DNA of 64,000 bases from Gautieria morchelliformis (Eukaryota; Basidiomycota; Agaricomycetes; Gomphales; Gomphaceae). Both the position numbers and the translations under genes were made by a program. Location of the stretch: NCBI GenBank assembly GCA_015179125.1, contig WHVA01000156.1:62001-126000 (forward strand), in the 5' to 3' direction. The notes under the pieces are model-generated. The model did not search any database. It saw only the letters and a list, made by a program, of their open reading frames with translations, and had not been told where the DNA came from. Numbering within the stretch: the first letter of the stretch is position 1; each line of letters starts with the position of its first letter. Positions 18,240 through 63,601 of the stretch are shown one piece after another.

Positions 18240-18394
18240 ATGACCCTCCTGCTCCTCCCTTGCCCTTTCACGCTCCTGCTGACGATTTCTCTCTGGAGTA
18301 GATGGATACCTGAGAAATGCAGGTATAAGCTTAGAGGAACAATCAAGCTACCAGAATTCAACTTACATTTGCAAGCAGATGCTGTTGTTGTTAA

Positions 18395-43584: not shown

Positions 43585-44226
43585 TTGTTATGACTGTGCA
43601 TTTCCAATTTCCGACCCTCAGTTCCGCACACATTCCGACCTCCCAATAGTTCTGATATTCCGCCCCTTGTTCTACTCCCTTGTTCTTTCGACTCTATTAC
43701 TCCGACCCACCAGACCTGCTTCATTGTTCATCAAGATCATATATCCGGTCATCCTTGTAGTTCGTTGTCAGATATGTTTTCCGACCCCTTGTTCTTTTGC
43801 CATTGTTTTACCTTACCCTGAACCCCCCTTGTAGTCCCATTGTTCCCAATTAGTTAGTTCCCACGTATGTCTACCCGACTTCCGCTCCCCCTGGAATTTG
43901 CTTAGTACTACCTCATTACATGTTGTCTCAGCTCTTTGTATAAAAGCCTCTCATGTATGTCTGTTATTCTGCAATCAGATAATCGCCTTTGATACTTGAT
44001 TTCCTTCGCTCCATCTCCTGTTCTTAGCACAACGAGTCTAGCAAGACCTCCGTCTCTCCGCCTTCCACCTTCCAACTCAGTTCCGACTTACCTTTAGTTC
44101 AGTACTTTCTGACTTCCAACCCACATTCCAAAATACTTAGGACGATAGTTCATTGGGGGCGCAACGTACAAGTTGAAGCCGCTGTTCTTTTCAGTTCTGA
44201 CTTAGCGGAAATCTCTATACGTAACA
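43585..44226 (+). repeat. Gypsy left LTR
   Basis: TGTTATGACTGTGC to ATACGTAACA, 642 bp. TATA box GTATAAAAGCC (about 43940). Ends are TGTTA...TAACA. Confidence 0.85.
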
Positions 44227-44259
44227 GTATTATCTGATTCCCACCCGATAACTATCACT

Positions 44260-44995
44260 ATGCCTCCTCGTACCACAGCTACTTCAGCTTGTGCAGGAGC
44301 TGTCGAAGCTCTCTCTTATTTTGGCAACCTTAGATATGCAGCACCAAGACGCGTGGAACCCTCCAGCAGCTCTCGTGCCGACGATGAGCTTTCCGACGTT
44401 CTTCCGCAATGTTTCGAAGAAGTTCCCGATGCTAATCCCGACGACAATCCCGACTATGATGGAAACTCGTCGATGAAATTGCCCGCGTCGGAAAACCCGC
44501 CACCCTTACCGACCTCCGCAACCTCGCCCAATCCATCGATTCGCGCTACTGGGAAAGACACTCCGAGATTGCTCATGAAACCTCCGCCCAGAGCAAGAAC
44601 GACAAGTCTTCCGACAAGAAGTCTGATAAAGACAAGAAGAAGACCAATTCCGGAAACACCAACTCCGGAAACAACAACAACAACAGTTCCGGATCCAACT
44701 CCGGCAACCGGAACAACAACAACACCCCTCGGAACAACCAGGCCTCTGGTTCTAACACCAATGCCCGGAAGAGCACCCCGGATCTTTCCGACAAACTTGG
44801 GAAAGACGGAAAACTAACCCCTGTAGAACGCCAGCGTCGCATGGACAACAACCTTTGCCTCTTCTGCGGCAAAGGAGGTCACGTCGCTCGCGACTGCACT
44901 CGCGCTTCTGCCTCCGCTGCTAAAGCCAAAGGCCGCGCAGCAAAGACGGAAGAGAAATCCGAAGCGGTTCCCGCTGCGGATTCAAAAAAATAGTC
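44260..44995 (+). other. Gypsy gag region
   Basis: Starts MPPRTTATSACAGAVEALSY like the gag of the inverted relative at 53133, and ends with the zinc knuckle CLFCGKGGHVARDC near 44860-44900 and a poly-Lys end. The capsid part is not whole. A stop separates it from pol. Confidence 0.75.
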
Positions 44996-45148
44996 AGCAG
45001 TCCTCCGGCCTCCGCACGAGCTGAGGGCTGTGTTGACCCCATTCGTGCGACAAACGAGGTTAAACTCAACGCATCCGCTCTTTCGTCCTCCGACTCTCTC
45101 TCTGTTCCGCTCACTTCCGATACCATTTCCACACCCCCGTTTACAGCA

Positions 45149-48100
45149 TTGGTCGACTCCGGTTCGACTCATTGTTTCCTCGATTCCGACTTTGTTTTGA
45201 AACATAAACTTCCGACCCGCAACATTCCGACTATTCCGCTCCGCCTTTTCGACGGGTCTTCCAACACGGGAATTTCCCAAGTTGTGGATCTGTCTATCCG
45301 TTTCGCTACTGGGGACAACCATGAAGTTACGTTTTACGTTACTCCGCTAGATGCTAGCTGTTCCGTTGTACTAGGACACAATTGGCTCACCCGATATAAT
45401 CCGTCGATTAACTGGGCATTGGGTCAAATACAGTTCCGTACCCCGGATCAACTTCCGTCTATTCCGACGTCTTCTGCAAAGATGGCTCAGGCCTCTTCTG
45501 CAACTCCGCTCGTGGATTCAGTTCCGCACTCCGGTCCCGCTTTAGCACCTCCGCCCCTCGAAGCCCCTCGAATTGCGCTCGTTTCCGCCACCGCTTTCTG
45601 TGTATTGCAACGGCAAGTTGATACGACCGTCTTCCAGCTTCACCTCTCCGATTCGGCTTCAGTCAAGGCTCGTTCCGCCTCGACTTCCGCTCCGGTCGAC
45701 ATGAGCTCAGTTCCGGAAGAATATCGTGACTTCCCGGACGTGTTCAATAAGGCCAAAGCCGACAAACCTGCTGAACATCGACCTCACGACTTGAAGATAG
45801 ATTTGGAAGAAGGAGCATCTCCGCCCCTTGGACCGATCTACTCTCTTTCGCAAAGTGAACTCCTAACTCTCCGAGAGTTCGTCGATGAACATCTCAACAT
45901 GGGCTTTATCTGCCCTTCGCTGTCTCCGCACGGCGCTCCGGTCCTCTTCGTCAAGAAGAAGGATGGATCTCTCCGCCTCTGCGTCGATTTCCGCGGACTC
46001 AATGCCCTCACTAAAAAGGACAAATATCCGCTTCTGCGCATTTCCGATTTACTCGACACTCCCCGCAGGGCGAAGATCTACACCAAAATTGACCTACGGC
46101 ACGCTTATCACCTTGTCCGCATCCGGGAAGGTGACGAGTGGAAAACCACCTTCCGCACCCGCTACGGTGCCTTTGAGTGGACTGTCATGCCTTTTGGTCT
46201 AACCAACGCTCCCGCCGCTTTTCAGCGATTCATGAACGACGTATTTTCCGACCTCCTCAACGTATGCGTTCTAGTCTACATTGACGACATCCTCATCTAT
46301 TCTGACACACCGGAAAAACATCGGGAACATGTCCGCGAAGTACTCCGCCGCCTACGCAAACACCATCTCTACGCAAAAGCAGAGAAATGCGAATGGCATC
46401 GCGACACAGTCGAATACCTCGGCTACATCCTCTCTCCAACAGGTCTTACCATGGCAGAGGACAAGGTCAAGGCAATTCAAGAATGGCCGGAACCCCGACG
46501 TGTTAAGGATGTGCAGTCTTTCCTTGGCTTCGCCAACTTTTACCGGCGTTTCATTTATAATTTTTCCGACATTACTGTTCCGCTCACGCGTCTCACCAGG
46601 AAGGGTGCCCCATGGAATTTCACACCGGAATGCCGTTCCGCATTTGAAGCCCTCAAATCGGCCTTCACCACGGCTCCCATACTCGGTTTCTGGATTCCTG
46701 ATGCCCAACTTGTACTCGAAACCGACGCTTCTGACTACGCGCTAGCCGCCATTCTTTCCATCATTTCACCCGACGACGGAGAAATTCATCCGATCGCCTT
46801 TCATTCCCGCACCTTTTCCGCCCCGGAACTCAACTACGACGTCCACGATAAGGAACTACTTGCGATTTTCGAAGCCTTCAAAATCTGGAGACATTACCTC
46901 GAAGGTCCAACTTATCCGATCGACGTTGTAACGGATCATAAGAACCTTGAGTATTTTGCAACCACTAAGATTTTGACTCGCCGTCAAGTCCGCTGGTCTG
47001 AATACCTCTCACAGTTCAACATGGTGATCCGTTTCCGCCCCGGAAAGCTCGGAGCAAAACCCGACGCGCTCACTAGACGTTGGGACGTCTACCCAAAAGA
47101 GGGAAGTAGCGACTATGCCAGCGTTAATCCGCACAATTTCCGCCCAGTATTCTCCACTGAGCAACTGGCATCGTCCCTGCGTGCCACAGCATTGCAGTTT
47201 CCACTACTCCGCGCCTCAATTATTATGGACACCGAGTCTCTCCGTTCCGACATCCGTTCCGCACTCCGTTCCGACCCCACCTCCGCAGCCCACCTCGATG
47301 ACCGCACCAGTCCTGGATGGTCCCTCGATTCCGACGGATTTCTCTGGTACAAGTCCCGGATTTACGTTCCGGACACCAACGATCTACGACTTCGCGTGCT
47401 CCAGCAAAGCCACGATCATCCGCTCTCAGGACACCAAGGCCAGAACAAGACCCTCGACATAATCCGACGCACCTATACTTGGCCTCTCCTCCGCACGATG
47501 GTCCAAGACTACTGCAAGTCATGCACCACCTGTATGCGAGCCAAGCCTCAACGTCACAAACCCTACGGCCTCCTGAAGCAACTTCCGATCCCGGATCAAC
47601 CCTGGAATTCGATATCCATGGATTTCATTGAGAAACTTCCTAAGTCATCCGGCTATGATACCATTCTAGTGATCGTTGACCGCCTTACAAAGCAGTCCAT
47701 CTTTATTCCGACCTACGACACCATAACTTCCGCCCAGCTCGCACAGCTCTTTGTGCTCCACGTCTTTTCCAAGCACGGAATCCCTTCCCATGTCACTTCC
47801 GACCGTGGATCCGAATTCGTGTCCTCCTTTTTCCGCACACTCGGCAAGGCTCTCGACATGAAGCTCCACTTCACTTCCGGTTATCACCCCGAAGGAGACG
47901 GACAAACGGAACGTACTAATCAGACCCTTGAGCAGTATCTCCGCGTCTATTGCAACTACCAACATAGCAATTGGTCCGACCTTCTTCCGCTCGCGGAATT
48001 TGCCTACAACAACGCGCCTTCCGCTACCACCGGAATTTCACCCTTTTATGCCAACAAGGGCTACCACCCGAATCTCGCCATCCACCCTGAACGCGACCTC

Positions 48101-48697
48101 GCCTCTGCAAGAGCCCGAGATTTCGTTGTGGAACTTGACGACCTTCACCAGCACCTCCGAGAGAACATTACCGCTGCCCAGAAGAGATACCAAACTTCCG
48201 CCGATCGGAAACGCCTTCCGCAACCGGCATTCGAGATAGGCGACAAAGCCTTTGTCAAAGCGGAAAACTTCCGCACCACTCGCCCCTCGAAGAAGCTCTC
48301 TGAGAAATACCTCGGTCCTTACGAGATCATCGCTAAGGCCGGCAGTCGTTCTTTCACCCTCAGACTTCCTGACAATATGCGCGCAGTACATCCGGTATTC
48401 CATGTCTCCATGCTTGAACCCGCAGTTCCGAATACAATTCCGAATCGAGAACAACCTCCGCCTCCGCCAGTCGTCATCGACGGAGAACCGGAATATGAGA
48501 TTTCGGAAATTCTCAACTCCAAGCTCGACAGAAGATACCGCTGCCAACTCCAGTACCTAGTCAAGTGGGCAGGCTATGAAAACACTGACGAAGAGACTTC
48601 GTGGATTTCCGCCACGGAACTTGACCACGCCTCTGACCTCGTCTCTGATTTCCACAAGTCATATCCTGACAAGCCTGGCCCCATTTCCACGCCCTAG
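45149..48697 (+). CDS. Gypsy pol polyprotein, 1182 residues
   Basis: Domains in order: aspartic protease VDSGSTHCFLD (about 3-12), reverse transcriptase with FVKKKDGSLRLCVDFRG (about 268) and YIDDILIYS (about 377), RNase H TDASDYALAA (about 524), integrase zinc finger H..H..C..C (about 753-795), integrase core with SMDFIEKLP (about 823), TSDRGSEF (about 883) and EGDGQTERTN (about 915), and a C-terminal chromodomain YLVKWAGYENTDEETSW (about 1130-1165). The chromodomain would guide insertion to marked chromatin, as known for chromoviruses. The frame is open throughout. The first visible ATG lies within the protease, so the true start is probably upstream or by read-through from gag. Confidence 0.93.
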   Translation: MVDSGSTHCFLDSDFVLKHKLPTRNIPTIPLRLFDGSSNTGISQVVDLSIRFATGDNHEVTFYVTPLDASCSVVLGHNWLTRYNPSINWALGQIQFRTPDQLPSIPTSSAKMAQASSATPLVDSVPHSGPALAPPPLEAPRIALVSATAFCVLQRQVDTTVFQLHLSDSASVKARSASTSAPVDMSSVPEEYRDFPDVFNKAKADKPAEHRPHDLKIDLEEGASPPLGPIYSLSQSELLTLREFVDEHLNMGFICPSLSPHGAPVLFVKKKDGSLRLCVDFRGLNALTKKDKYPLLRISDLLDTPRRAKIYTKIDLRHAYHLVRIREGDEWKTTFRTRYGAFEWTVMPFGLTNAPAAFQRFMNDVFSDLLNVCVLVYIDDILIYSDTPEKHREHVREVLRRLRKHHLYAKAEKCEWHRDTVEYLGYILSPTGLTMAEDKVKAIQEWPEPRRVKDVQSFLGFANFYRRFIYNFSDITVPLTRLTRKGAPWNFTPECRSAFEALKSAFTTAPILGFWIPDAQLVLETDASDYALAAILSIISPDDGEIHPIAFHSRTFSAPELNYDVHDKELLAIFEAFKIWRHYLEGPTYPIDVVTDHKNLEYFATTKILTRRQVRWSEYLSQFNMVIRFRPGKLGAKPDALTRRWDVYPKEGSSDYASVNPHNFRPVFSTEQLASSLRATALQFPLLRASIIMDTESLRSDIRSALRSDPTSAAHLDDRTSPGWSLDSDGFLWYKSRIYVPDTNDLRLRVLQQSHDHPLSGHQGQNKTLDIIRRTYTWPLLRTMVQDYCKSCTTCMRAKPQRHKPYGLLKQLPIPDQPWNSISMDFIEKLPKSSGYDTILVIVDRLTKQSIFIPTYDTITSAQLAQLFVLHVFSKHGIPSHVTSDRGSEFVSSFFRTLGKALDMKLHFTSGYHPEGDGQTERTNQTLEQYLRVYCNYQHSNWSDLLPLAEFAYNNAPSATTGISPFYANKGYHPNLAIHPERDLASARARDFVVELDDLHQHLRENITAAQKRYQTSADRKRLPQPAFEIGDKAFVKAENFRTTRPSKKLSEKYLGPYEIIAKAGSRSFTLRLPDNMRAVHPVFHVSMLEPAVPNTIPNREQPPPPPVVIDGEPEYEISEILNSKLDRRYRCQLQYLVKWAGYENTDEETSWISATELDHASDLVSDFHKSYPDKPGPISTP

Positions 48698-48826
48698 TCA
48701 TTTCCGACCTCATTTCCGACGCCCATTGATTCTTACAGTTCTCAAGTCATTTGTCAAAATCCGATTAATTTCCCGTTACTCTATTTTCCGACACTTCAAG
48801 AAATTATCTACAAGTCCTTGATACCC

Positions 48827-50036
48827 CTACTCCTCCCCCATTGTCTCCGCCTCGACCTCTTTTTCCGCCTCCCCTACCTCGACACTCACCAACTCCATTT
48901 CCACCCTTTCCCTCGTTTCCGCCCCACCGCTCGAACCCGTTTCCGCCCCAACTCCCTGCTCCCGCAGCCGCGCATCCATTCGGTCCCGGACCAAATCATT
49001 CCGCCACCTCATTTCCCGCGTCAACTGCTGTAGCACTGTGGACATAACAGTCATCTGGTTCTGAATCGACAGAACCTGATGCTGTTGAACCTCGGCCATA
49101 TCGATCATGATATCCCGGATTTCGCGTTGCTGTTCCCGCATGGCCCTCAGCGACCCGGCGATGTCGAGGAGCGGAGAAGCCATGGTGAACCGGTTCAACA
49201 CCGCCTGTGCCGACGTTCCGGTCACCGGAAAAGATTCCTCGGCCCTCCCTCCGCTCGGTCCCGGTTCCGCCTTCGGATTTGACTCCTCAACCTTCTGTTT
49301 CTTTCGCTCCAGCCTCGAAGCGCACCCGTCCACGACGCAGCGCCTTTTCCTGTCACGGCACTGGTCGCACGACGTTTCCCGTGGATTGCTCGACCACGTG
49401 CAATCCACCCCCTTAGACTCGCATGGGTCACAAGGGGCCTTTTCCTCATCGCCGTCCCGAGTTTTCCGCTTCTTAGTCGCGGGATTTTCCGGCCCCAGTT
49501 CACGGAGTTCTAACATCCGACTCAACTTCTCCTTTCGAGCCTTCTGGAATGCGTCCGCTCGAGTTTTCCGTTCCGCCACAAGGTTCACCGGGGTCGCAAT
49601 CTCCTTTTGCTTCCCTTTTCCTTCCGGAGTCGGTGTACTTTCCGCCGAACCTTCCGAGTCTGACTCTGACTCGTCCTGAACATGATTCTGGAAGAACTCT
49701 AGTTAATTTCAAGATCATTTCCGCCGGACATTTCCAACTCACCTGATCCCTTTCCGCTTTCTCCGCAGCCGCTTTCTCTGCAGCAGCCTTGTCCGCAGCA
49801 GCCTTCCGTGCCGCGTTCCGTTTCCGTTTCTCTTCACGGACGCACTCCTCCTCCTCACGGCGTTCGCGCTCTTTCCTCTCCTGCTCCTTCCGCTCCTTCT
49901 CCCGACGTTCTTTCTCTTTCCGCGCAGTTTCCTCAGCCTCGCGTTTCTCGGCCATTTCCTTTTGCGTGAGCATATCAGCGAAGTGCTGTTTCATCTCCGC
50001 GCTGGACATCTTAGAGAAATCTACTGGGGCACTCAT
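48827..50036 (-). CDS. antisense accessory ORF of the Gypsy element, coiled coil plus Zn2Cys6-like cluster
   Basis: Between pol and the right LTR, on the opposite strand, lie two open parts (50036-about 49746 and about 49690-48827) separated by a short segment with GTGAGT and CTAGAG borders, typical of a host intron. The first begins MSAPVDFSKMSSAEMKQHFA and is a charged coiled coil (KEKERREKERKEQERKERER; AADKAAAEKAAAEKAE). The second has an acidic patch, a basic stretch, then cysteines spaced CX2CX6CX10CX2CX6C (CDPCESKGVDC ... CDQCRDRKRRC), the pattern of fungal Zn(II)2Cys6 DNA-binding domains, followed by helices (QREIRDIMIDMAEVQQHQVL). Its start lies 123 bp from the LTR. A regulator or nucleic-acid-binding role is inferred only from the pattern. 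It shares the CGGAA word use of the element, so it has been resident for long. Confidence 0.7.
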
Positions 50037-50158
50037 GATGGAATAGAGAGAAGACGCGTTTGTCTTTCAGCCTATATTTCAAACTCCGACGCGTTTGTTC
50101 ACAGGTCACGTGATTCCGACTTGTGGTCTCGCGGGGCTCGACCTTAGAAGGGAGATAC

Positions 50159-50851
50159 TGTTACGACCGTTCATTTCCGACTTCCGACCCTCAGTTCCGC
50201 CATACATTCCGCCTCTCCAATAGTTCCGCCACACGTTCCGCCCCTCCGACATTTCCGCCATTCCGCCCCTTGTACATTTCCCTTGTTCTTTCGACTCTAT
50301 TACTCGGACCCACCGGATCTACCTCGCCATTCATCAAAACCATATATCCGGTCACCCTTGTAGCTCGTTGTCAGATATGTTTTCCCGACCCCTTGTTCTT
50401 TGCCATTGTTCTACCTTACCCTGAACCCCCCTTGTAGTCCCATTGTTCCCAATTAGTTAGTTCCCACACATTGTACTCGACTTCCGCTTCCTCCGGAATT
50501 TGCTTAGTACAACACCATTACTTGTTGCTCTGCGCTTTGTATAAAACCCCCCTCATGTATGTCTGTTATTCTGCAATCAGATAATCACCTTCGATACTTG
50601 ATTTCCTTCGCTCCATCTCCTGTTCTTAGCACAGCGAGTCTAGCAAGATCTCAGTCTCTCTCTCAGCCTTCCGTCCTCCGCCTTCCGCCTCAGTTCCAAC
50701 TCAAGTTCCGACCAAACCTCTGGTCCAGTACTTTCCGACTTCCGGCTCATTTCCGAAATACCTAGGACGATAGTTCATTGGGGGCGCAACCTATAAGTTG
50801 AAGCCGCTGTCCTTTCCAGTTCTGACTTAGTGGAAATCTCGATACGTAACA
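50159..50851 (+). repeat. Gypsy right LTR
   Basis: TGTTACGACCGTTC to ATACGTAACA, 693 bp, TATA box TATAAAACCCC. It is followed by AAATC, then Copia RNase H coding sequence. Nearly identical to the inverted LTR 53167-53859 (one difference noticed, at GGATC/GTATC). Confidence 0.9.
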
Positions 50852-51482
50852 AAATCCCAACAACGGTCAATCAACCTCTGGGTTCCTCACAAAGGTCGGG
50901 ACCGGAGCCATCAGCTGGGCCAGAAAATTGCAGAACATAGTCACCTTATCCACAACCGAGGCCGAGTTCGTCGCATCAGTCCTGGCAGGGACCGAAATCG
51001 TCTGGTTGCGAAGCTTATTGGATGAGCTTGATTCAAGGGTTGAAGGACCATCTCACCTATTCATTGATAATCAATCTGCTCTATCTGTTGCCAAAAATCC
51101 CAAGCATAATGGACGCATGAAGCACCTGGATATCCGGTACTTCTGGCTGCAAGAAAAGGTTGCTCATAAAGTCATCCAAATCGGTTACGTACCTACGAAC
51201 AGTATGCCGGCGGACCTACTGACCAAAGCATTACCTTGCGAGTTGGTCGAACGACATAGATGCACTATGGGACTCTTCTGACATTGACCGCGTCAGGGGG
51301 GTGTGTTACTCACGTGCTACTCGTGTGAGATCACGTGATGCAGTCACCCAATATGGTAGTCTGAGTTCGAAGGGAAACCCTATCAGTTTTCCCTTCGAAC
51401 TCAGGTGCGTAATGCTAGGTACTCACCAAGTAGATAGTAATCTAATCAGTTTTCCCTTCGAACTCAGTCCTGCGCATGACAC
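50852..51482 (+). mobile_element. 3' end of old Copia (Copia-1): RNase H end and 3' LTR
   Basis: The frame 50928-51281 has VTLSTTEAEFVASVLAGTEI and HLFIDNQSALSVAKNPKHNG, the RNase H of Ty1/Copia. A purine tract (caGGGGGG) precedes the LTR TGTGTTACTC...GCATGACA at 51302-51482. In the LTR the segment AGTTTTCCCTTCGAACTCAG occurs twice. The same LTR sequence is found inverted at 63510-63600. The rest of this element lies at 53860-63600 in the opposite direction. Confidence 0.8.
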
Positions 51483-51490
51483 CAACAACA

Positions 51491-51655
51491 TGCTGCAATA
51501 AAGCATGCGATAAAGTGTGCGATAATGCATGCGATAAAGCATGTGATAAAGCGCAGTGCGATAAAGCGTGCGATAATGCATGCGATAAAGCGCAGTGCGA
51601 TAATGCATGCGATAATGCACACTGCGATAAAGCACCTTGCGATAAAGCAGTGTGT
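51491..51655. repeat. 12-14 bp tandem repeat, GCATGCGATAAA
   Basis: Units such as GCATGCGATAAT, GCATGCGATAAA and GCGCAGTGCGATAAA recur about twelve times. They are open in several frames (ACDKACDNACDKAQCDKACD), but no gene is meant. It sits next to the point where the block changes direction. Confidence 0.9.
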
Positions 51656-51674
51656 GATTGGTGTTCCCCTGACA

Positions 51675-53859
51675 ACGATGTATTTAGCTATCATATGAGT
51701 GTCTTTCATATAAGCTTATTGAGTTCATTTTCCACATCGGCTTCCATATCAAATGGTCCGAAGTTGCTGCGGAGTTTGGAAATGAAATTGTGATAATCAT
51801 CAGCCCAGTCGATGAGGGCGAACAGATCCATGAGGGCAGGTTCGAAATAGTCGAGAGCCATGCCTCGGAGATAGGAAAGGGCATAGTTGACCTTTCGTTC
51901 GTCATCGGGAAAGGCCTCGGGACGATCACGGAAGTTGAGCTGAAGCTGGACCAAAAAACGCTGGAGCTTCTTGGGGTCGGAACCGTCAAACTGATCTGGT
52001 TCACGGACTTTTGTCTTGGGGCGTGGAGCTTAGGCCAGGCGCTGGAGTTGGCCAGCTAGCATGGCAATAGCCTGTGCAAGATCTGGAACTGGTGCGGGAG
52101 GAACTGGGTTGCCAGGAATCGGAGGTGGAGGACCGCCGGGTGGGCCGCCTGGAGGGGGTCCTGGAGGAGGTGGTGGTGGTGGAGCTGGGTGTCAGAATGA
52201 TGCTGCTGTTTGTTCGCCGCTGCTGTTCTTGATGCGGGATGGCAAGCCCATGTAAAACTGGCGTCGGAGTGCGGCTTCTCCCCATTGGACTCGAGGAGCG
52301 AGCTGCTGAAACGTGACGATATATTTAGCTATCTTATGAGTGTCTTTCATGCGAAGCTTATCGAGTTCGTTTTCCGCATCGGCTTCCATATCAAATGGTC
52401 CGAAGTTGCTGCGGAGTTCGGAAATGAAATTGGGGTAATCGTCGGCCCAGTCGACGAGAGCGAACGGATCCATGAGGGCGGGTTCGAAATAGTCGAGCGC
52501 CGTGCCTCGGAGATAGGAAAGGGCATAATTGACCTTTCGTTCGTCGTCGGGAAAGGCGTCGGGACGATCACGGAAATTGAGTTGAAGCTGAACCAGAAAT
52601 GGCTGGAGCTTCTTGGGGTCGGAACCGTCGAACTGATCTGGTTCGCGGACCTTTGTCTTGGGGCGTGGTGGTGCTTGGGCCGGGCGCTGGAGTTGTCCGG
52701 CTAGCATGGCGATGGCTTGTGCAAGATCCGGAACTGGCGCGGGCGGAACTGGGTTGGCGGGAATCTGAGGTGGAATTGGAGGTGGAGGACCGCCGGGAGG
52801 ACCGCCTGGGGGACCGCCGGGTGGGCCGCCATGAGGGCCGCCTGGAGGTGGTCCTGGTGGAGGTGGTGGTGGTGGAGCTGGGCGTCGGAATGACGCTGCT
52901 GTTTGTTCGCCGCTGCTACTCGTCGAATTCCCGTCGTAGTCGGGATTGTTGTCGGGATTAGCGTCGGGAACTTCTTCGAAACGTTGCGGAAAAGCATCGG
53001 AAAGCTCATCGTCGGCACGAGAGCTGCTGGAGGGTTCCGCGTGCCTTGGTGCTGCGGATCTAAGATTGCCAAAATAAGAGAGAGCTTCGACAGCTCCTGC
53101 TCGAGCTGAAGTAGCTGTGGTACGAGGAGGCATAGTGATAGTTATCGGGTGGGAATCAGATAATACTGTTACGTATCGAGATTTCCACTAAGTCGGAACT
53201 GGAAAGGACAGCGGCTTCAACTTATAGGTTGCGCCCCCAATGAACTATCGTCCTAGGTATTTCGGAAATGAGCCGGAAGTCGGAAAGTACTGGACCAGAG
53301 GTTTGGTCGGAACTTGAGTCGGAACTGAGGCGGAAGGCGGAGGACGGAAGGCTGAGAGAGAGACTGAGATCTTGCTAGACTCGCTGTGCTAAGAACAGGA
53401 GATGGAGCGAAGGAAATCAAGTATCGAAGGTGATTATCTGATTGCAGAATAACAGACATACATGAGGGGGGTTTTATACAAAGCGCAGAGCAACAAGTAA
53501 TGGTGTTGTACTAAGCAAATTCCGGAGGAAGCGGAAGTCGAGTACAATGTGTGGGAACTAACTAATTGGGAACAATGGGACTACAAGGGGGGTTCAGGGT
53601 AAGGTAGAACAATGGCAAAGAACAAGGGGTCGGGAAAACATATCTGACAACGAGCTACAAGGGTGACCGGATATATGGTTTTGATGAATGGCGAGGTAGA
53701 TACGGTGGGTCCGAGTAATAGAGTCGAAAGAACAAGGGAAATGTACAAGGGGCGGAATGGCGGAAATGTCGGAGGGGCGGAACGTGTGGCGGAACTATTG
53801 GAGAGGCGGAATGTATGGCGGAACTGAGGGTCGGAAGTCGGAAATGAACGGTCGTAACA
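51675..53859 (-). mobile_element. 5' part of a second Gypsy copy: LTR and duplicated gag
   Basis: The LTR (53859-53167) is followed by gag on the minus strand: 53133-52192, starting MPPRTTATSARAGAVEALSY, with a Pro/Gly-rich stretch and the capsid part FLVQLQLNFRDRPDAFPDD. From 52190 to 51675 a diverged second copy of the Pro-rich and capsid part follows in tandem. No pol follows. The flank at the LTR 5' end is AAATC. Fossil, broken; at least two structural breaks. Confidence 0.8.
53167..53859 (-). repeat. Gypsy LTR, inverted
   Basis: Reverse complement of 50159-50851, same length (693 bp), nearly identical. Confidence 0.92.
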
Positions 53860-54607
53860 GATTTCCTCCGTGATCAGCGTCGGTCCATGTCTGGAACGAT
53901 TTGATTGATGGATTGGGTGCGTAGGTGAGTGCTAGATCGATTGTCCCTTTCAGGTAGCGTAGGAGGTGTTTCACCACTGTCCAATGCACCGGACCAGGAT
54001 TTGAGTTGAATCGTGCGAGGCATCCGACGGTGTAGGCAATGTCAGGACGAGTCGCGATGGCTAAATAATTCAGCGCTCCGACTGCATTTAGGTAGGGCAC
54101 ATCCCTCATTTCCTCTATCTCCTCTGGTGTTGATGGTCCCATGGCAGTGCTCAAACTCAGACTTGGGGCCATAGGCGTGAATACAGGTCGACAATCCAAC
54201 ATCTGGACCGATCAAGGAGTTCTTGAATGTACAGCTTTTGTGAGAGTCTTAATGTCCTCTGTGAGCAATTGTATTCTACCTCTACTCCCAGTAATGACGT
54301 TGTCAGGCCCAGATCCTTCAATTTGAAGATTTCACCTAGTTTGTTTTTGACCTGGTCTAGTTCCTGCTTGGAGTTTGATACCAGAGTCAAATCATTGACA
54401 AAAACAGGTATGATGATCTTGGTGGTGTTGCTCAACCAGATGTAGACACTTGGCGCAGATTGGAGACGCTTGAATCCCATACTCTCTAGCGCAGTCCCAA
54501 GCTGTTCGTACCATAACCTTCCACTCTGCTTTAATCCATACAGCCCTCTCTTCAGCTTGCATACCCAGTCTGATCCCCCTTGATGGTAGCCTTCCGGTTG
54601 CTGCATG
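53860..54607 (-). other. Copia-1 reverse transcriptase/RNase H part
   Basis: LKRGLYGLKQSGRLWYEQLG, FVNDLTLVSNSKQELDQVK, ATRPDIAYTVGCLARFNSNP and WTDADHGG are Copia RT and RNase H blocks. The part is cut at 53860 by the Gypsy LTR. Old and broken. Confidence 0.85.
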
Positions 54608-55555
54608 TATATTGTTTTAGGAATAATATATCAGATATATCAGGACAGATATATTTGATGACTCAGGGAGTTGGAACTCTTCGTGCACCCCTGTGCACAG
54701 TATATGCGCGAGCTGACTAAGCTCTGTGGAGCGAGTCGTCACTGATTGATGTAGGTCACGTGACCGAGTCGAGGAAGAAACAGATGAGAACAGAGGAACA
54801 AGAGGTCCGAAGCTTTCGCTTTTGGAACAGTATAGTGTAGCCAGTTATAGTAGACTCTCAACAAAGAATTAGAGAAATCTATCAAGAAATAAGCTCTGTA
54901 GCTATCAAACAAGTCTACAGTTACTTCAGGAGGTGAAACAGCAATTCTGGATTGTTCTGGACAATATTCTGGATGTTTTGTTCGTACATTTATGGTAGCT
55001 ACTTATACTAAAATAGTAGTGAGTACCAGTGTTCAAGATAGTGAGTGAATGGGTCAGGATAATGTGGAAATGCTCCACAGGCTGCATACAGCTGTGGAGC
55101 AGGAACAATGATGGGGATACTTGTCCTACTGACAAGTATCTAAGCTGGGACCTTGGAGCAATGTACAAAGCCCCTTTCAACATGTAATACAACTCGTAAT
55201 CAGTGGAGCTGGTCAGGGGAATAGAATAGAAAAGAAATCATGTGTGTCCTGTGCTGTGTGCCTACAGCAGCCTTGGCAAGGCATTTGCCATCTCTGTACC
55301 TCTCTCCTGAGGTAGCTATTCAGTACGTCCGTAGATAGGACAGTGTACTGTAATTTCCATCGTGTCCGATGTCCCTGTATGGGTCTATTAGTCCCATAGC
55401 AATATTTCTTCTGACCAGGGCCCAGGTGCCTGCTTTCCAGGGCAGGCACTGCTACTGGTGCATGGATTATTTCTCCCAGATGTTAGCTCAGTTAGACGAT
55501 TGTATAGACCTTAGAATACTGTGTGATATAGCTATCCATTTATTCTAACATATTG
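54608..55555 (-). mobile_element. LTR-like insertion in Copia-1, about 950 bp
   Basis: On the minus strand it runs from TGTTAGAATAAATGG to TTCCTAAAACA, interrupting the Copia RT between ...DDATI and YMQQPEGY. The word CAATA lies on both sides, so a 5-bp target duplication is likely, although its overlap with the terminal CA makes the exact border ambiguous. It has no coding part, so it is probably a solo LTR. Confidence 0.6.
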
Positions 55556-56213
55556 TTGCGTCATCGGCGAGTACTCCATTTAGGTAAGCGTTCGATATGT
55601 CTATTGACTCGATATGTGCTCCCTGTAGTGCTCCCTGAGCTAATATTGTGCGCAGGGCTGCCCATCGTGTGGTAGGAGCGAAGACTTCGTCGTAATCGAT
55701 GTTGGGTATATCCCTTCGCTGCCAGGCAGCTCTTGTATTTATCTAGAGAGCCGTCCGAATGGAGCTTGATTTGGAAGACCCACCGAGAGCCAATGGCTTT
55801 CTCTCCAGGAGGTAATTTCACTAATTCCCATGTCCCATTGTCTAGGAGGGCTCGGATCTCTGCGTCCGTCGAGTCCTTCCATATTGGCACGTCGGAGCGT
55901 TGCATTGCTTCAGCGAACATCTTGGGAATGCGGCCATCTTTTATTGTTGCATTCAGTGCTGCTCTGATGATACCCGGTGAGATCGCGTTTGCGTCCATGA
56001 TGTCTGATTCATCATATATGAATTCCAGGGCCTGAATGATTGAAGCGCTGGCTGCTGCACCCCCCTCAGGGCCTGGATCATCATGATCAGGAGGTGGACG
56101 AGGTTGGAGGAATGGGTCATGGAGATGGCGATAATCAATCCGGGCAGTAGTCCTGCTGGACCGGTGGAGGGGTGCGATAGGTGTGGGTGGGGCTGGTGGG
56201 TCAAGGTCAGCTG
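55556..56213 (-). other. Copia-1 integrase-RT linker and RT start
   Basis: IWKDSTDAEIRALLDNGTWE, LVKLPPGEKAIGSRWVFQIK and KSCLAAKGYTQ are the N-terminal Copia RT blocks. Cut at 56213 by the young Copia. Broken; a few breaks. Confidence 0.85.
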
Positions 56214-56711
56214 TGTTGGGTGCATTTATGCTCCTGCACCAAAATCAAGCATAATATATCCAATTTGTTGTGTGGCCTTCCAATTTCTTCTCACATTGTT
56301 CTTGTATTATGCATCCATTTCTCTGGTTATTTTCGAAATTTTCCACTCATTCTTTATTTTTCTATTTCATCTTGTTATTCCTACTTTCACAAGCGGCTGC
56401 ACCCAGCGGAGTCTGAAATGACTTCGACGCGCGAGCTCTTGGGCGCTAAAGGGCCGGGTAGTAGTACATGCGCAGTGGAACACATTTCCCCCTCTCTCAG
56501 TGACCACTAAATTCACTGAGAGAGGCAAGTAAATTAGTCTAGTAGTCTTTGCATTTATTGACCTAGAAATCCTCTGTAGTGAATTGATTTCTAGGTAGTG
56601 TATAATATATTTATAGTGACCACTAAATTCACTGAGAGAGTGAATTGATTTCTAGTCTATTCTTTTGAATAACAAGTCCATACCTACTGCCTATAATTCC
56701 TGTCCTCAACA
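56214..56711 (+). repeat. Copia-2 left LTR
   Basis: TGTTGGGTGC to CCTCAACA. It holds a perfect hairpin CCTCTCTCAGTGA / TCACTGAGAGAGG (about 56491-56526) and a partial repeat of its right half; a TATA-like tataatatatttata lies downstream of it. Confidence 0.95.
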
Positions 56712-56716
56712 GGGTT

Positions 56717-59700
56717 ATGGGCCCCGGAGACACTTCTGAGAAGCTATTGGGTGTTGAGAAGCTTGCTACTGATGGAAGTAATTGGCCATTGTGGCGAGCC
56801 ACTCTCATCAGTTATTTCGAGTCCAAGAATCTACTCAAGCATGTAGAAGGGAGAGTCACTAGACCTCCTGATCCTCCAGTCATGCCCCCAGGCCATATTC
56901 TTACAGAAGCTGAGGAAACTCAGATGGATAAGGCTGAGGAGAAGCTGGAGAGATACCTTGCTAGAGAAGGACAAGCCAAGACCCAAATCATCGTCTCAGT
57001 GTCAGAGTCATTAGCCCTGATGCTACAGAAGCAGAAGACAGCAAAAGAGACTTGGGATGCACTGGTCAATGAAATGACCAAAAAGCCCAAGATGGTCCTC
57101 ACCAGCCTGCAGAGACAACTCCGCAGTATGAGATGTCCTGAGGATGGAGATTTGAGAGATCACTTGGACAAGGCCCAAGACCTATATGCTCGTCTTAATG
57201 AGATGGGAGCTAGAGTTTCTGAAGAAGAATTCATGGACATAATCCTTGCGTCACTTCCACCATCCTATGAGGCAGTCATGAATGCCCTTACAACTTCGCT
57301 TGAAGAATGCGGGATGCCATTGGTCCCTGATAATATTATTAGGGTACTAAAGGCTCAGTATGACAGGAAGAAAACACTCCCGCAAGAAGAGCAGGTGTTT
57401 ATTGGTTCATCTACTAAGAAGGACCAGAAGGGGCAGAAGGCGCATGTATGCACCAACTGCAAAAAGCCTGGACATTCCATCGAAAATTGCTGGGCTAAAG
57501 GAGGTGGTAAAGAAGGTCAAGGACCACGTCAGAAGAAGAAAGCCAAAGGCAAGAAGAAGAAGAAGGGTAAAGCAAAAGCGAATGTTGCCGAAGAAGAGTC
57601 TACTTCTGAGGAAAGTGGTGATGGGCATCTTGCCTTCACCAATTTCGACGAGTGCTCTAATTTCAATTTGAGCACATCCTCAGGGGTTATAGTCATACTC
57701 GACACCGGAACGACATCGCATATGACTCCTCACAAAAATTTATTGAGGAACTACTGTCAATTCTCACAGCCGAGGACTATCCGAGCAGCCAACAAAGGTA
57801 CCTTTGATGCCTTCGGCTCAGGACTGCTCGTATTATCCAATAAGGTTGGAGATAGAACAGTAGAAGTCACGTTGCAAGATACATACTATGCACCCAAAAT
57901 TGCTGCTACCCTCGTCTCGATCGGTCGGTGCGATGATGCTGGCTACGACATTCGACTCGGTGGCCAGAAATGCACAATATCTAATGCTGCTGGAAAAGTA
58001 TTGATGCAAGCACCGAAAGTCAATGGCTTATATCGACTAGACCTCCAGTCACCAAGTGCTCAAGCCCATATGTGTTTATCTGCCATGGAAATTCATCAAA
58101 AGATGGGGCACATCTCGCAGAAGTCCCTACAACATCTATTAAATCATGGCATGATATTGGGCATTGAACTGAGCTCCACAGGCGATAGAATTGTCTGTGA
58201 TGCGTGTATTCAGGCCAAGATTGCGCGCAAACCTCTTCCTCGAGAACCCAGAGACCGAACATCAAAATTCGGTGACAGAATTTATTCTGATGTCTGGGGA
58301 CCTGCAAGACACCTCACGATCGATAAGAAGTCATATTATGTCTCCTTTATCGATGACTACTCAAGAGAATCGGTGATCTATCTCATGGCGAACAAATCAG
58401 AAGCATTCTCAAAGTACAAGCTCTACGAGGCTTTAATGCTTCGACAGAGAAATGTGCACATCAAGGCACTTGTTTCTGATCGAGGGGGCGAGTATATGAG
58501 CTCTGAATTCGAACAGCATCTAGCCAAACAAGGCACGAAGCATCAGTTGACGGTACACGACACACCAGAGTCCAATGGTGTTGCGGAACGCCTGAATCGA
58601 ACTCTCACTGAGAGAACTCGTGCCATGCTGCTAGAATCAGGCCTTCCTAAGATATTATGGGGCTATGCGATACAGCATGCCAATTATCTTAGGAACAGGA
58701 CGCATACAAGAGCTCTACCAGATAAAACGCCCTACGAGATGATTCACCATGAAAAACCGAATCTCAAAGACATTCACGCGTGGGGAACTGAAATTTACGT
58801 TAAAATCACTCAGGGAGATAAATTGGCAGCTCGTGCCAAGAGAGCTCGGTGGATAGGAATTTCTGCGCAGAGCCATGGTCATTATGTTTATTGGCCTGAC
58901 TCGCACAAAGTTTCTGTCGAGCGGAACGTTGTCTTTGATTCAGAAATGAAGAAGGGAAAGGTCCCAATCATTTCTATTGAAGAATCCAAGCTACCTACGT
59001 CTAAAGAGGAGAAGAAGGCCATTCCGGCATCAGTGCCTGTGCCCGGTCGCTTAGTCAGCGAAGAGGCAAAGATCGAAGAAATTGATGAAAGTGCACCGGA
59101 AGAATATCTTGAAAAGCTGCAACCTATTCAGGGAGTTGATGACAGACCTAGAGAAGCTGAACCGATAAGGAGAAGCGAAAGGATCCGTCAACAACAAGTG
59201 CAGCCGGCCCCATCAGGTCCCGTGACAAGATCTCAAACTCAGAGACAAACTGGCGCACATATGACTACGCTAGCTTACGAGGACGTTGAGGACCATAAAG
59301 AAGTTTTATTCGACCAAGAATTATCCTCCGAGATTGATGGCATCAGTAGCTATGAGTGTGCCATCAGTGCGTTTCTAACCGACGGTCAAAACAATAACAA
59401 GGCGCCGGATTTGAGTCAAATTGAACCTAGCAATGCAGACGAAGCTCTGAATAATCCTATATGGAAGAAATCAATGGACAAAGAGTATGAGGCCCTAATC
59501 GACAAGGGAGTGTGGGAACGAGCCAAACCACCTCCTGGAGCCAATATTGTCGGTAATAAATGGGTCTACCTTTGGAAGCGTAATCCAGAAGGGAAACCAA
59601 TAATGCCTAAATCGAGAATGGTCGCCCAAGGCTTCACACAGAAGTTTGGAGTCGACTATGATGAGACATACTCACCTGTTGCTCGGTTATCCTCCCTACG

Positions 59701-60961
59701 GATCATATGTGCCATTGCTGCTAGGAATGACTGGCCTATTCATCAAATGGACGTGGACTATGCATACCTCAATGCTACGTTGCCCGAACCTATTTACATG
59801 AAGCAGCCGTATGGATATGAGTCAGGAGACAAAGGCGAAGTGCTACTTTTGAAGAAAGCACTCTACGGCCTCAAGCAATCTGGAAGAGAATGGTATAAAC
59901 GTCTAAGTGGTGAATTCCACAAGTTAGGATTCACTACGTCAGCCACAGATGGGGCTGTATTTTATAGACGTGGCGGAAAGGGGCATGTGATCATTGCAAC
60001 AGCTGTGGACGACCTTACCATCACAGCTGAGAATCAATCAGTCCTGGATGAAATCAAACGAGATCTTGCTCAGGTCTTCAGTATGAAAGATCTAGGCGAG
60101 ATTCATTGGCTATTGAATCTCAAAATCGAAAGAGACTGGCAGAAGAAGACCATTGCAATTTCACAACCTGCATATATCGAGAAGATCATCAAAAAATTTA
60201 ATCTCGAAGATGCAAAGACTTATGCTACGCCTCTTGATCCAGCCGTAAAATTATCTAAAGACCAATGTCCTTCTACAGAGAGAGGCAAGAAAGCCATGTC
60301 GAAGTTTCCATACAGGCAAGCTATAGGATCACTGATGTGGGCGGCTGTAGCCACTCGACCTGACATTGCATTTGCGGTGTCATTACTCTCGCAATTCCTT
60401 GAAAATCCAGGTGGCACACACTGGAATGCAGTCAAACGTGTCTTCAAATATTTGAAAGGCACGAAGCATTACAAGCTCACACTTGGAAGAAATCAAGACG
60501 GCTTGATGGGGTATTCAGATGCGGATTGGGGTTCACAGAGTCATAGGCGTTCGTATTCGGCATACTTATTTCAGATTGATGGAGGCACTGTTTCATGGAG
60601 TTGCCAGAAACAGTCGATAGTAGCCCTCTCATCAACTGAAGCCGAATTCGTCGCCCTGACCCATGCGGGCAAAGAGGCTCTTTGGATGCGCCATTTTATT
60701 TCTGAAATATTCCAACCACTGAACAGACCCATCCAAGTTTATTCAGACAATCAATCAGCCATTGCCATCACGTATGGCACCCAACAACACACGAGAACCA
60801 AGCATTTCGACATCCGATTATATTTCCTTCGAGATATACTCAAAAATCAACAAGCCAAGCTCGTTTATTTGCCAACCGAACAAATGTTGGCAGATATCCT
60901 CACTAAAGGACTTCCTAGTCCTAGAGTGAAGATTCTCAACGAGCAAATCGGAATATATTAA
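56717..60961 (+). CDS. Copia-2 gag-pol polyprotein, 1414 residues
   Basis: A single frame starts at the ATG inside the primer-site motif, five bases after the LTR. In order: gag with a UBN2-like part (WPLWRATLISYFESKNLLKH), zinc knuckle CTNCKKPGHSIENC (about 245), a Lys-rich linker, protease DTGTTSHMT (about 328), integrase HHCC (HQKMGHISQKSLQHLLNHG, CDACIQAK; about 459-497), integrase core YSDVWGP, FIDDYS, PESNGVAERLNRTL (about 523-630), RT with NKWVYLWKRNPEGKP, SPVARLSSLRII (about 988) and AVDDLTIT (about 1095), then RNase H GYSDADWGS (about 1265) and STEAEF (about 1306). No stop or frame change is seen. Confidence 0.95.
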   Translation: MGPGDTSEKLLGVEKLATDGSNWPLWRATLISYFESKNLLKHVEGRVTRPPDPPVMPPGHILTEAEETQMDKAEEKLERYLAREGQAKTQIIVSVSESLALMLQKQKTAKETWDALVNEMTKKPKMVLTSLQRQLRSMRCPEDGDLRDHLDKAQDLYARLNEMGARVSEEEFMDIILASLPPSYEAVMNALTTSLEECGMPLVPDNIIRVLKAQYDRKKTLPQEEQVFIGSSTKKDQKGQKAHVCTNCKKPGHSIENCWAKGGGKEGQGPRQKKKAKGKKKKKGKAKANVAEEESTSEESGDGHLAFTNFDECSNFNLSTSSGVIVILDTGTTSHMTPHKNLLRNYCQFSQPRTIRAANKGTFDAFGSGLLVLSNKVGDRTVEVTLQDTYYAPKIAATLVSIGRCDDAGYDIRLGGQKCTISNAAGKVLMQAPKVNGLYRLDLQSPSAQAHMCLSAMEIHQKMGHISQKSLQHLLNHGMILGIELSSTGDRIVCDACIQAKIARKPLPREPRDRTSKFGDRIYSDVWGPARHLTIDKKSYYVSFIDDYSRESVIYLMANKSEAFSKYKLYEALMLRQRNVHIKALVSDRGGEYMSSEFEQHLAKQGTKHQLTVHDTPESNGVAERLNRTLTERTRAMLLESGLPKILWGYAIQHANYLRNRTHTRALPDKTPYEMIHHEKPNLKDIHAWGTEIYVKITQGDKLAARAKRARWIGISAQSHGHYVYWPDSHKVSVERNVVFDSEMKKGKVPIISIEESKLPTSKEEKKAIPASVPVPGRLVSEEAKIEEIDESAPEEYLEKLQPIQGVDDRPREAEPIRRSERIRQQQVQPAPSGPVTRSQTQRQTGAHMTTLAYEDVEDHKEVLFDQELSSEIDGISSYECAISAFLTDGQNNNKAPDLSQIEPSNADEALNNPIWKKSMDKEYEALIDKGVWERAKPPPGANIVGNKWVYLWKRNPEGKPIMPKSRMVAQGFTQKFGVDYDETYSPVARLSSLRIICAIAARNDWPIHQMDVDYAYLNATLPEPIYMKQPYGYESGDKGEVLLLKKALYGLKQSGREWYKRLSGEFHKLGFTTSATDGAVFYRRGGKGHVIIATAVDDLTITAENQSVLDEIKRDLAQVFSMKDLGEIHWLLNLKIERDWQKKTIAISQPAYIEKIIKKFNLEDAKTYATPLDPAVKLSKDQCPSTERGKKAMSKFPYRQAIGSLMWAAVATRPDIAFAVSLLSQFLENPGGTHWNAVKRVFKYLKGTKHYKLTLGRNQDGLMGYSDADWGSQSHRRSYSAYLFQIDGGTVSWSCQKQSIVALSSTEAEFVALTHAGKEALWMRHFISEIFQPLNRPIQVYSDNQSAIAITYGTQQHTRTKHFDIRLYFLRDILKNQQAKLVYLPTEQMLADILTKGLPSPRVKILNEQIGIY

Positions 60962-60974
60962 GCTTGAGGGGGCG

Positions 60975-61472
60975 TGTTGGGTGCATTTATGCTCCTGCAC
61001 CAAAATCAAGCATAATATATCCAATTTGTTGTGTGGCCTTCCAATTTCTTCTCACATTGTTCTTGTATTATGCATCCATTTCTCTGGTTATTTTCGAAAT
61101 TTTCCACTCATTCTTTATTTTTCTATTTCATCTTGTTATTCCTACTTTCACAAGCGGCTGCACCCAGCGGAGTCTGAAATGACTTCGACGCGCGAGCTCT
61201 TGGGCGCTAAAGGGCCGGGTAGTAGTACATGCGCAGTGGAACACATTTCCCCCTCTCTCAGTGACCACTAAATTCACTGAGAGAGGCAAGTAAATTAGTC
61301 TAGTAGTCTTTGCATTTATTGACCTAGAAATCCTCTGTAGTGAATTGATTTCTAGGTAGTGTATAATATATTTATAGTGACCACTAAATTCACTGAGAGA
61401 GTGAATTGATTTCTAGTCTATTCTTTTGAATAACAAGTCCATACCTACTGCCTATAATTCCTGTCCTCAACA
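60975..61472 (+). repeat. Copia-2 right LTR
   Basis: Same 498 bp as the left LTR with no difference noticed. Confidence 0.95.
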
Positions 61473-63600
61473 AGCTGGTGGGTCGGGGTCGGCTGGTGGG
61501 TCAGGGTTGGGAGGAGGGTTGGGAGCAACTGGTGGGTTGGGTTCGGCTGGTGGTCTGGGATTTTCTGGAGGGGCGGCTCCTGGGAGTTCAATGCCTTGGT
61601 CTGGTTGCCCTTCCAGTGGAGCTACGATCTGGTTGGGAAGTATGGTGGATGGTAAGAGTGGTTCAGTAATATTGTTAGCCGTGGTATGACCTGGGAATTC
61701 AGATTCATCAAAGATGACGTCTCGAGATATGATGGTGCATTTTGTGATGGGGTCCAAGCAGCGCCAACCCTTATAACCATCCTCGAAGCCGAGGTAAATG
61801 CATTTGCGAGATCTGGGTTGCAGTCCAGCTCTTTCGTCCTTTTGCACATGGACATAGGCAGTGCAGCCAAAGGTACGCAGCATTCCAAGGTTTGGTTTGT
61901 GGCCAAACCAGGCCTCGTAGGCAGTTTTGTCTATGAGCGCAGAGGTTGGAGTGGCATTGATGATTCGAACCAATAATTTTAGGGCATCTCCCCACCTCGA
62001 CGCTGGTAGATGGGCTTGCTGTAGTAGTGCGATCATTCCTTCCATGAAGGTCCGATTCATCCGTTCTGAGATGCCGTTCTGCTGCGGTGTGCCCTTAGTA
62101 GTATGTTCATGAAGTATACCCCGGTGCTGGAAATGTTGGTCCCACTTATGACCAGTATACTCCCCACCTTTGTCGTCCCTAAAACGCTTCACTCTCGAGT
62201 TTAATTGATTTTCTGCCAGTGCTTCGAAGGCCTGGTAGGCATCAAATGCCTCATCCTTTGTCTTCAGGAGATAAACGGTCCTGTACCTCGTGCAGTCGTC
62301 CGTGAAAGTAATCCAGTATCGGTGTCCTGATGGTGTGCAGACTGGGAGAGGCCCATGGACATCTGAGACAACAAGGTTGAGTGGGCTGGACACGCGGTTG
62401 GTGCTTTTTGGGAAGGGGTTGCGGTGTTGCTTCGCAGCAATACATGGTTCGCAGATATGAGGAACAGTCCCATTTGAGTTTACCTGTATCCCGTCGACCA
62501 TGTTATTTTCTAGGAGCTTCTCCAGCCGCGCCTGTCCAATGTGCACGAGTCTTCTGTGGAGTAATGGTCTGTCTACTATTTGCGAAGAGATGGCGAGTGC
62601 GAGTTCTTGATTTGGGACTGTGTTCCCAGTCAAGAAACCCGTCCTGTTTCGTACGGCGGCACAGAAGCGCAATTTATTGCCTTGGATAAACAATATGTGG
62701 TCCTTCACAATGCAGACGGTGAAACTGTGGTGTGTGGTAAGGTGGAGGACTGTGAGTAAGTTGTTCTGGAGTGCAGGCACGTGTAGAACTTTCAAGAACA
62801 AAATGTCTTGTGTCGGCTTCCCGTCAATCATGGGGGAAAACAATACTTGCCCCCGCCCGGCTGAGTACACTACCTTGTTTGTTGCTAGTCTGATGGGTAC
62901 TCTGTAGTACTCGTAATTCCGCAGCCAATGACGATGAGGAGTCATGTGGCTGGTCGCTCCTGTGTCTGTGTTCCAGCACAGATCGGCGTCTCCATTGATT
63001 GATGATGAAGGCGAAGGTCGTAGGTTCGCATTCCCAGCAAGTTCCTCTGTGATATCGCTTGATGCACTTTTCTTCTGTTTTCGTGGTGCGGATAGCCTTT
63101 CTGCAAGTGGTGCAAAGGATCCTCGTCGCTTCAGGTTTCTGTTTCCTGTAGCGATAGTATTTCCATCCAGATTCTTGCTTTTTAGCCTTTTCCACATTTC
63201 GATGGGATTTTCCATGGTGTTCTCGACGTGGACGTATTGTGTCGGAGTTAGGGATTCGAGTATGGTGCCGGCAGCCTCCTCCCTCTTCAGGATCCATTTT
63301 TCCGCTTCTCTCACGTCCATCGGTCTTTTGAGGTCTTCGATGACTATTCGCCATGCACCTATTTTCATGAGCTTCTCCTGCATTTCAGTTGCCCAGAGAT
63401 CATAATTCATGCCCATGAGTCTGACGCTTTTCGCGCGACCTTCAGCCTTTGATTTGGACATGCTGAGTTCTTTTCCTTCAATTATAGCGCGGGGCCCATA
63501 ACCTGTCACGCGCAGGACTGAGTTTGAAGGGAAAACTGATTATATTACTATCTACTTGGTGAGTACCTAGCATTACGCACCTGAGTTTGAAGGGAACACT
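61473..63600 (-). mobile_element. 5' half of Copia-1: LTR end, gag, protease, integrase
   Basis: The open frame 63509-61467 (680 residues) has gag-like MSKSKAEGRAKSVRLMGMNY and DLWATEMQEKLMKIGAWRIV, then protease DTGATSHMTPHRHWLR, integrase LLHRRLVHIGQARLEKLLEN, SDVHGPLPVCTPSGHRYWIT, GTPQQNGISERMNRTFMEG and a Pro-rich PNPPPNPDPPADPDPPA end, cut at 61473 by Copia-2. The gag part is short, probably damaged. Part of the 5' LTR (63600-63510, ending CCTGCGCGTGACA) and the primer site GGTTATGGGCCCC are visible. Together with 50852-51482 and 53860-56213 it forms one old, broken element. Confidence 0.85.
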
Positions 63601-63601
63601 G

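Follow-up and report, generated by a model that had tools for sequence, protein, structure and literature searches.

A conserved antisense gene with a zinc-cluster-like motif, and a pentamer saturating the surrounding DNA, in a chromodomain Gypsy element of Gautieria morchelliformis

The window, which is the whole 64,000-nucleotide stretch of Gautieria morchelliformis DNA that was analysed, contains a Gypsy element spanning positions 43586-50851. A first-pass annotation had described this element as a chromodomain Gypsy, a reading borne out by matches to PF00078, PF17921 and PF00385, with PF00665 just below its cut-off. It had also placed a minus-strand coding region between pol and the 3' LTR, and both this placement and the ends that it gave (ATG at 50036, stop codon ending at 48827) are exact. 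The region is not one frame, however. Two exons, 50036-49743 and 49687-48827, flank an intron that had been overlooked. The element is laid out as follows:

43586..44226, plus strand: 5' LTR, with 84 mismatches against the 3' LTR in 697 aligned columns
44206..44817, plus strand: start of gag, part of gag being missing (by-eye comparison with the gag at 53187-52192)
44924..48697, plus strand: pol, a single frame with protease, RT, RNase H, integrase, SH3-like domain and chromodomain, from profile matches
48827..49687, minus strand: exon 2 of the antisense gene with its stop codon, 286 amino acids, scored for dN/dS among copies
48959..49177, minus strand: predicted long helix, exon-2 residues 171-243, from a single-sequence model
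49322..49432, minus strand: zinc-cluster-like motif of six cysteines plus a seventh cysteine, with the PF00172 halves in reversed order
49688..49742, minus strand: intron of 55 nt, GTGAGT...TTCCAG, of the GT-AG kind
49743..50036, minus strand: exon 1, beginning with the ATG, 98 highly charged amino acids, matched in 48 of 50 loci compared
50037..50157, no strand: spacer between the antisense ATG and the 3' LTR, with a purine tract at the LTR border
50158..50851, plus strand: 3' LTR, with 15 TTCCG in 694 nt

Exon 2 encodes, in order, an acidic N-terminal part, a conserved basic KKRKTR stretch, the zinc cluster, the long helix and an acidic tail. Both exon 1 and the exon-2 helix read as coiled coils, and the helix is a possible dimerisation part of the modelled protein. 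An alternative splice acceptor may lie in frame, 12 nt past the first one. The LTR-side part of the spacer is better conserved between types of the gene than the gene itself, and the spacer as a whole is a possible antisense promoter.

Several other features lie in the window. A partial inverted second copy of the same Gypsy family occupies 51706-53860, with gag preceded by an LTR (53860-53167) whose sequence is identical (100%) to that of the 3' LTR at 50158-50851; this copy carries a 91% direct repeat (51712-52011 and 52354-52653). Beside the element, an ORF on the plus strand at 51446-51793 has a repeated CDKACDNAC-like cysteine pattern and looks like a short tandem DNA repeat. Further away, an uninterrupted Helitron-like ORF of 1672 amino acids with PIF1 and Helitron_like_N lies in CpG-poor DNA on the minus strand (13332-18347). 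Two Copia-type ORFs are found at 56669-60958 and 61470-63539, of which the first is open over 1430 amino acids and has AGAAG over-represented.

The antisense gene is not peculiar to the window. When the genome (122 Mb in 1113 contigs) was searched with exon 2, 137 rows were obtained, representing at least 136 places at 62-100% identity; this is a lower bound, as 703 first-look candidates were present and 136 were scored. By hand count, 108 of the 137 listed rows have no internal stop, in a list biased to intact copies because it was ranked by score. Moreover, 16 of 16 further pol copies that the exon-2 listing did not match also carry the gene, with exon 2 in one piece in 7, in two or more pieces in 6 and with internal deletions in 3. 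Together with the at least 136 places, these copies rule out the capture of the gene by a few copies only.

Fifty loci (L009-L058, L009 being the window copy) were compared. In 48 of them the opposite strand carries a match to the C-terminal 167 residues of pol (L050 and L055 have none), and the full 3' LTR was recovered at 40. In all 48 loci with an exon-1 match the donor GTGAGT stands between the exon matches, and it stays although the intron body varies among types. Exon 2 is complete and free of stops in 46 loci, exon 1 is complete in 42 and the pol C-terminus in 31. The antisense frame is open in 46 of the 46 scored copies, which had been pre-selected from the 50 loci for the absence of a stop in that frame; the other five frames average 4.0-10.5 stops. 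An ORF arising by chance opposite a sense gene was ruled out, as only 0-2 of the 46 copies are open in each sense frame. Of 1035 pairs, 891 have a dS of 0.1-1.5, and in these the median dN/dS of exon 2 is 0.17. Among 12 type representatives, third codon positions hold 55% of the differences, and the internal gaps of the nucleotide alignment are all multiples of three, a property partly built in because copies containing stops had been dropped beforehand. Conservation among copies and purifying selection, two of the signs by which the first-pass annotation proposed to judge the ORF, are both present, and its claim that the element carries its own antisense protein gene beside the LTR is strongly supported. 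Overall, this chromodomain Gypsy lineage carries, as a standard component, a conserved antisense protein gene that has a conserved intron and is under purifying selection.

The class of protein that this gene encodes is less straightforward. Zn(II)2Cys6 proteins follow the spacing rule CX2CX6CX5-12CX2CX6-8C, hold two zinc ions and bind CGG half-sites or triplets. The cysteines of the window protein are spaced CX2CX6CX10CX2CX6C, exactly as had been read from the sequence, and this spacing agrees with the rule. All 46 copies retain the motif cysteines, except that one column has 45 of 46, and a seventh cysteine after the motif (VDGC) is kept in all 46. The PF00172 profile matches the window copy with 15.0 bits, below its gathering cut-off of 21 bits. 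At E up to 1 the profile matches 19 of 20 copies, and a single one passes the cut-off (L052, 22.2 bits). Taken alone, the N-terminal cysteine half aligns to PF00172 positions 15-37 (E 0.0029). The C-terminal half, which is basic, aligns on its own to positions 1-13 (E 0.11), and the two together reach 20.6 bits in two stretches. Since the halves match positions 15-37 and then 1-13, the canonical order of the cluster appears reversed, with the basic half second. The proposed Zn(II)2Cys6 assignment therefore stands in part: the spacing is exact and the expected PF00172 match is present, but this match is weak, being below the cut-off in 19 of 20 copies, and the halves are in reversed order.

A single-sequence model of the protein has a mean pLDDT of 64.8, with low confidence in the zinc region. 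For the helix at residues 171-243, pLDDT is 70 in the block at the start and 84-96 across residues 181-240. Comparison of the fold with solved structures gave nothing significant, the one match having an E of 7.5. No relative was found among PDB sequences, in the bacterial and archaeal library NCBIfam or among viral contigs.

The antisense gene also differs from the rest of the element in its diversity. When other types were compared with the window copy in 100-bp windows (leaving out L055, which has no matching pol, and L053, in which part of the gene is missing), identity was 87-100% in pol at 47.5-48.6 kb, mostly 50-80% at about 48.8-50.05 kb and 77-100% in the LTR, except at 50.2-50.3 kb, where it was 39-98%. 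Divergence is concentrated at 48.7-50.05 kb and is arranged block-wise, as a mosaic, within the gene. In 406 pairs scored for both parts, dS reaches at most 0.30 in the C-terminal part of pol and 1.53 in the antisense gene. A pol dS below 0.1 is combined with an antisense dS above 0.8 in 53 of these pairs, and the reverse, an antisense dS below 0.1 beside a pol dS above 0.1, occurs in 3. LTR distances between types are 0.02-0.10. Within the element, gag and pol of six elements differ from those of C539 by 0-4% in nearly all 200-bp windows, the exceptions being one gag window of C982 at 10% and the 5' part of C425, which is non-homologous and was left out. Five elements have a complete pol frame. 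Their pol dS is 0.03-0.06, while antisense dS between types is 0.42-1.17 in 9 pairs and 0.94-1.17 in 7 of them.

Hypermutation of this segment was ruled out on one pair of the same type, C577 and C425, in which antisense dS (0.038) shows no excess over pol dS (0.049). This absence of excess points to the exchange of old alleles instead. The 5' and 3' LTRs differ by 0-4 mismatches in four of the five elements examined (in C539 over the part compared); in the fifth, C425, no 5' LTR was found. Three of the four (C577, C14 and C539) have an exon 2 that is open yet different, and with such nearly identical LTRs it follows that young elements carry different old types. The element is thus nearly uniform apart from this gene, of which several old types exist and recombine. 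Recombination between co-packaged RNAs would be the route by which types are exchanged. They may be kept by an advantage of rare types or by sweeps of pol and LTR across pre-existing types. It would be unusual for a mobile element to keep such old allelic variation, with dS near 1 in this gene and 0.03-0.06 in pol; variation of this kind is expected of immune or self-recognition genes.

In one alternative account, the function resides in the antisense RNA, acting through dsRNA, silencing or self-limitation, with the reading frame secondary. Synonymous sites take part in the diversity peak, which coincides with the very part that is potentially transcribed both ways; this would be expected if the element were escaping sequence-specific small RNAs. 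Control by antisense RNA is discussed for plant elements in the accessible text of PMC7264820. Such a function could explain the diversity but not the protein, whose constraint is strong, with its dN/dS of 0.17 and near-invariant cysteines. We regard it as very unlikely.

The second unusual property of the element is the abundance of a short word. TTCCG, which reads CGGAA on the antisense strand, is its most over-represented pentamer. In C577, whose two pieces were counted separately, 116 TTCCG were found, compared with 11.2 expected from composition and 19.4 from dinucleotides. Counted on the sense strand, it occurs 23-25 times per kb in the LTRs and 9-14 times per kb across gag, pol and the antisense gene, and each of 21 copies has 9-23 TTCCG in the gene region. 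In the window at 1-40000 and 54001-64000, both orientations together occur about once per kb. The pol of the window element contains 44 TTCCG; codon shuffles give 14.3 +/- 3.3 (z 9.0), and across 300 of them the highest z of any of the 1024 pentamers was 5.1. The exact word is enriched 10.4-fold and its single-base neighbours 3.1-fold or less. Because the neighbours are weak and codon shuffles fail to reproduce the word, its excess is not a matter of general composition. Between types, TTCCG sites are retained at 52%, against 30% for all pentamers, but the word ranks only 19th of 178. The excess is absent from two Copia ORFs, one Helitron ORF and two host ORFs in the window and from the pol pieces L083 and L084, which are of other Gypsy-type elements. 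Codon use and CpG retention were rejected as causes, as no excess arises in codon shuffles or in two CpG-rich host ORFs. The DNA of the element is therefore saturated with TTCCG/CGGAA.

The orientation of the word is relevant to the main rival explanation, in which the pentamer acts in the sense RNA, as nucleocapsid sites for Gag or a packaging tag, and the antisense protein is unrelated to it and regulates something else. The strong bias in the C577 pieces, 116 TTCCG to 30 CGGAA, fits an RNA-level role, as does the presence of the word throughout coding and non-coding parts and both LTRs. Such a role does not predict the excess of the other orientation, CGGAA, in the sense strand of pol (16 in the window, compared with 5.3 in codon shuffles) and of gag (9, compared with 3.1). 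Moreover, the motifs of VANC proteins, which are bound as DNA, also form one-orientation arrays, as described in the accessible text of PMC5735166. Within the antisense gene itself, CGGAA occurs 13 times in the window copy, compared with 6.3 +/- 1.9 expected; in C577 it is not clearly enriched (11, compared with 7.4 +/- 2.0). A role of the word in RNA is, in our judgement, unlikely.

It is also conceivable that the antisense protein is an accessory factor acting on host genes or proteins, the motif being an unrelated mutational or compositional habit of the lineage. The saturation of gag and pol, away from regulatory regions, fits this account, as does a Copia element in which another pentamer is over-represented. 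A compositional habit does not sit well with the gap between the 10.4-fold enrichment of the word and the 3.1-fold or less of its neighbours, with the failure of codon shuffles or with the two GC-rich, CpG-rich host ORFs at 32-39 kb, which have no TTCCG excess. We rate this account, too, as unlikely.

A sister family provides a natural comparison. The locus L082, which is 76.9% identical over pol residues 819-1255, carries an antisense ORF at the equivalent place (L082:3-764) with one CX2CX6C and, judged by eye, a coiled coil. Its protein matches nothing in Pfam and is not clearly homologous to the window protein. The sister gene is repeated, with 155 matches, and by hand count a stop is present in about 32 of the matches listed. 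TTCCG is not enriched in L082 (1.8 per kb). Instead, CCTCG occurs 28 times in a 2193-nt pol-antisense piece of the sister family (6.5 +/- 2.5 expected) and 9 times in its presumed LTR of 563 nt (1.9 +/- 1.3 expected). Neither word is enriched in the other family's pol: 3 TTCCG were found in the sister pol piece, compared with 2.4, and 13 CCTCG in the window pol, compared with 11.3. In the sister pol piece alone, CCTCG occurs 15 times, compared with 6.0, and its z of 4.6 is within the reach of codon shuffles (5.0); CGAGG there is at 3, compared with 2.3. This restriction to one orientation again suits a role in RNA, and a relative with a different word could equally have a different compositional habit.

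The presumed sister LTR was picked by scanning for CCTCG-rich stretches and was given to the sister family because it lies beside L056 and L066, where a sister element should have its LTR. The window-family loci L037, L053 and L061 also contain stretches in which CCTCG or CGAGG reaches 9-11 per kb. A Copia control with no known antisense gene shows a comparable excess, in that AGAAG is found 36 times, compared with 10.5 +/- 3.0 in the dinucleotide test; codon shuffles give 17.3, and the z of 5.4 equals the shuffle maximum. Both this control excess and the way in which the sister LTR was found weaken the argument from the sister motif. What the results indicate is a sister family that has both a different antisense gene and an excess of another pentamer, CCTCG; this is a lead and not proof, and the link between gene and motif rests on two families. 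At the edge of the window, 63592-64000 is part of an LTR that is 92% identical to the presumed sister LTR in L056 and has 5 CCTCG in 409 nt.

Based on this evidence, the reading that we favour is that the antisense gene encodes a regulator of its own element. The protein would be a nuclear, dimerising zinc-cluster protein with reversed Zn2Cys6 halves, which may bind a CGG-containing word, GKCGGAA, at sites spread over the LTRs and the rest of the element that encodes it. In this role it would drive transcription from the LTR or hold host silencing off the copies; the VANC proteins of plant VANDAL transposons are the working analogy. The types of the gene would be swapped between co-packaged RNAs during reverse transcription, and their diversity would be kept since rare types do better, either against a type-specific host response or against cross-repression. 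DNA binding, nuclear action and a benefit of the protein are inferred. As the LTR and the motif are almost the same in all types, recognition of the LTR does not explain their diversity. As a whole, a regulator or anti-silencing factor that reads the word of its own family, with types swapped and kept by rare-type advantage, is a tentative reading whose chance we put slightly below even. A broader version, in which related families each encode an antisense protein reading a family-specific pentamer throughout their own DNA, coding regions included, while ancient types are held by rare-type advantage as pol and LTR sweep, is doubtful. If true, this would be a retrotransposon self-recognition system. 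The window family offers a concrete pair for testing, a DNA-binding-like protein and the word that may be its target, for which the sister family, possibly with another word, is a natural control.

Among known proteins, the fungal Zn(II)2Cys6 factors share with the window protein the cysteine spacing, one basic half and a long helix after the cluster. Unlike them, it has reversed halves, scores below the profile cut-off in 19 of 20 copies and is encoded by a retrotransposon. A literature search, outside which most subscription journals lay, found no fungal Gypsy element described with a zinc-cluster antisense gene or with such saturation by a pentamer.

The closest parallels in position are the aORF-3R genes of plant Gypsy elements (gene23 of Grande, RIRE2 and Retand), which lie antisense between pol and the 3' LTR. 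In the accessible portions of PMC7264820 and PMC11963269, nuclear or DNA-binding roles are proposed for them, and what antisense genes do in LTR retrotransposons is described as an open question; in Retand, 97% of clusters have an antisense ORF bearing TRP28, which probably can bind DNA. As far as these portions extend, the window gene agrees with the plant genes in place, orientation and presence in most copies of the family. It differs in belonging to a fungal chromodomain element, in having a zinc cluster rather than TRP28 (no PF04195 match was listed for either exon at E up to 10) and in its conserved intron. Pentamer saturation and hypervariability confined to the gene may be further differences. 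In fungi, brtn, of a Boty-like Gypsy of Botrytis cinerea (Zhao et al., 2011), is likewise described as an extra antisense gene in a Gypsy element.

With respect to the word, the closest parallel is VANC of the Arabidopsis VANDAL DNA transposons. There, an element-encoded protein is paired with a dense word in one orientation that is rare elsewhere, and related VANDAL families have different words, according to the accessible text of PMC5735166. In the window family TTCCG is also dense in the family's own DNA and rare elsewhere, elsewhere being the rest of the window and a few loci, and CCTCG may be a different word of the sister family, in a comparison of two families only. VANC motifs lie mainly in non-coding tandem repeats, as that text describes, whereas the window word is inside coding regions too. 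Finally, unlike VANC, the window system would be that of a retrotransposon with a different protein, the binding of which is predicted.
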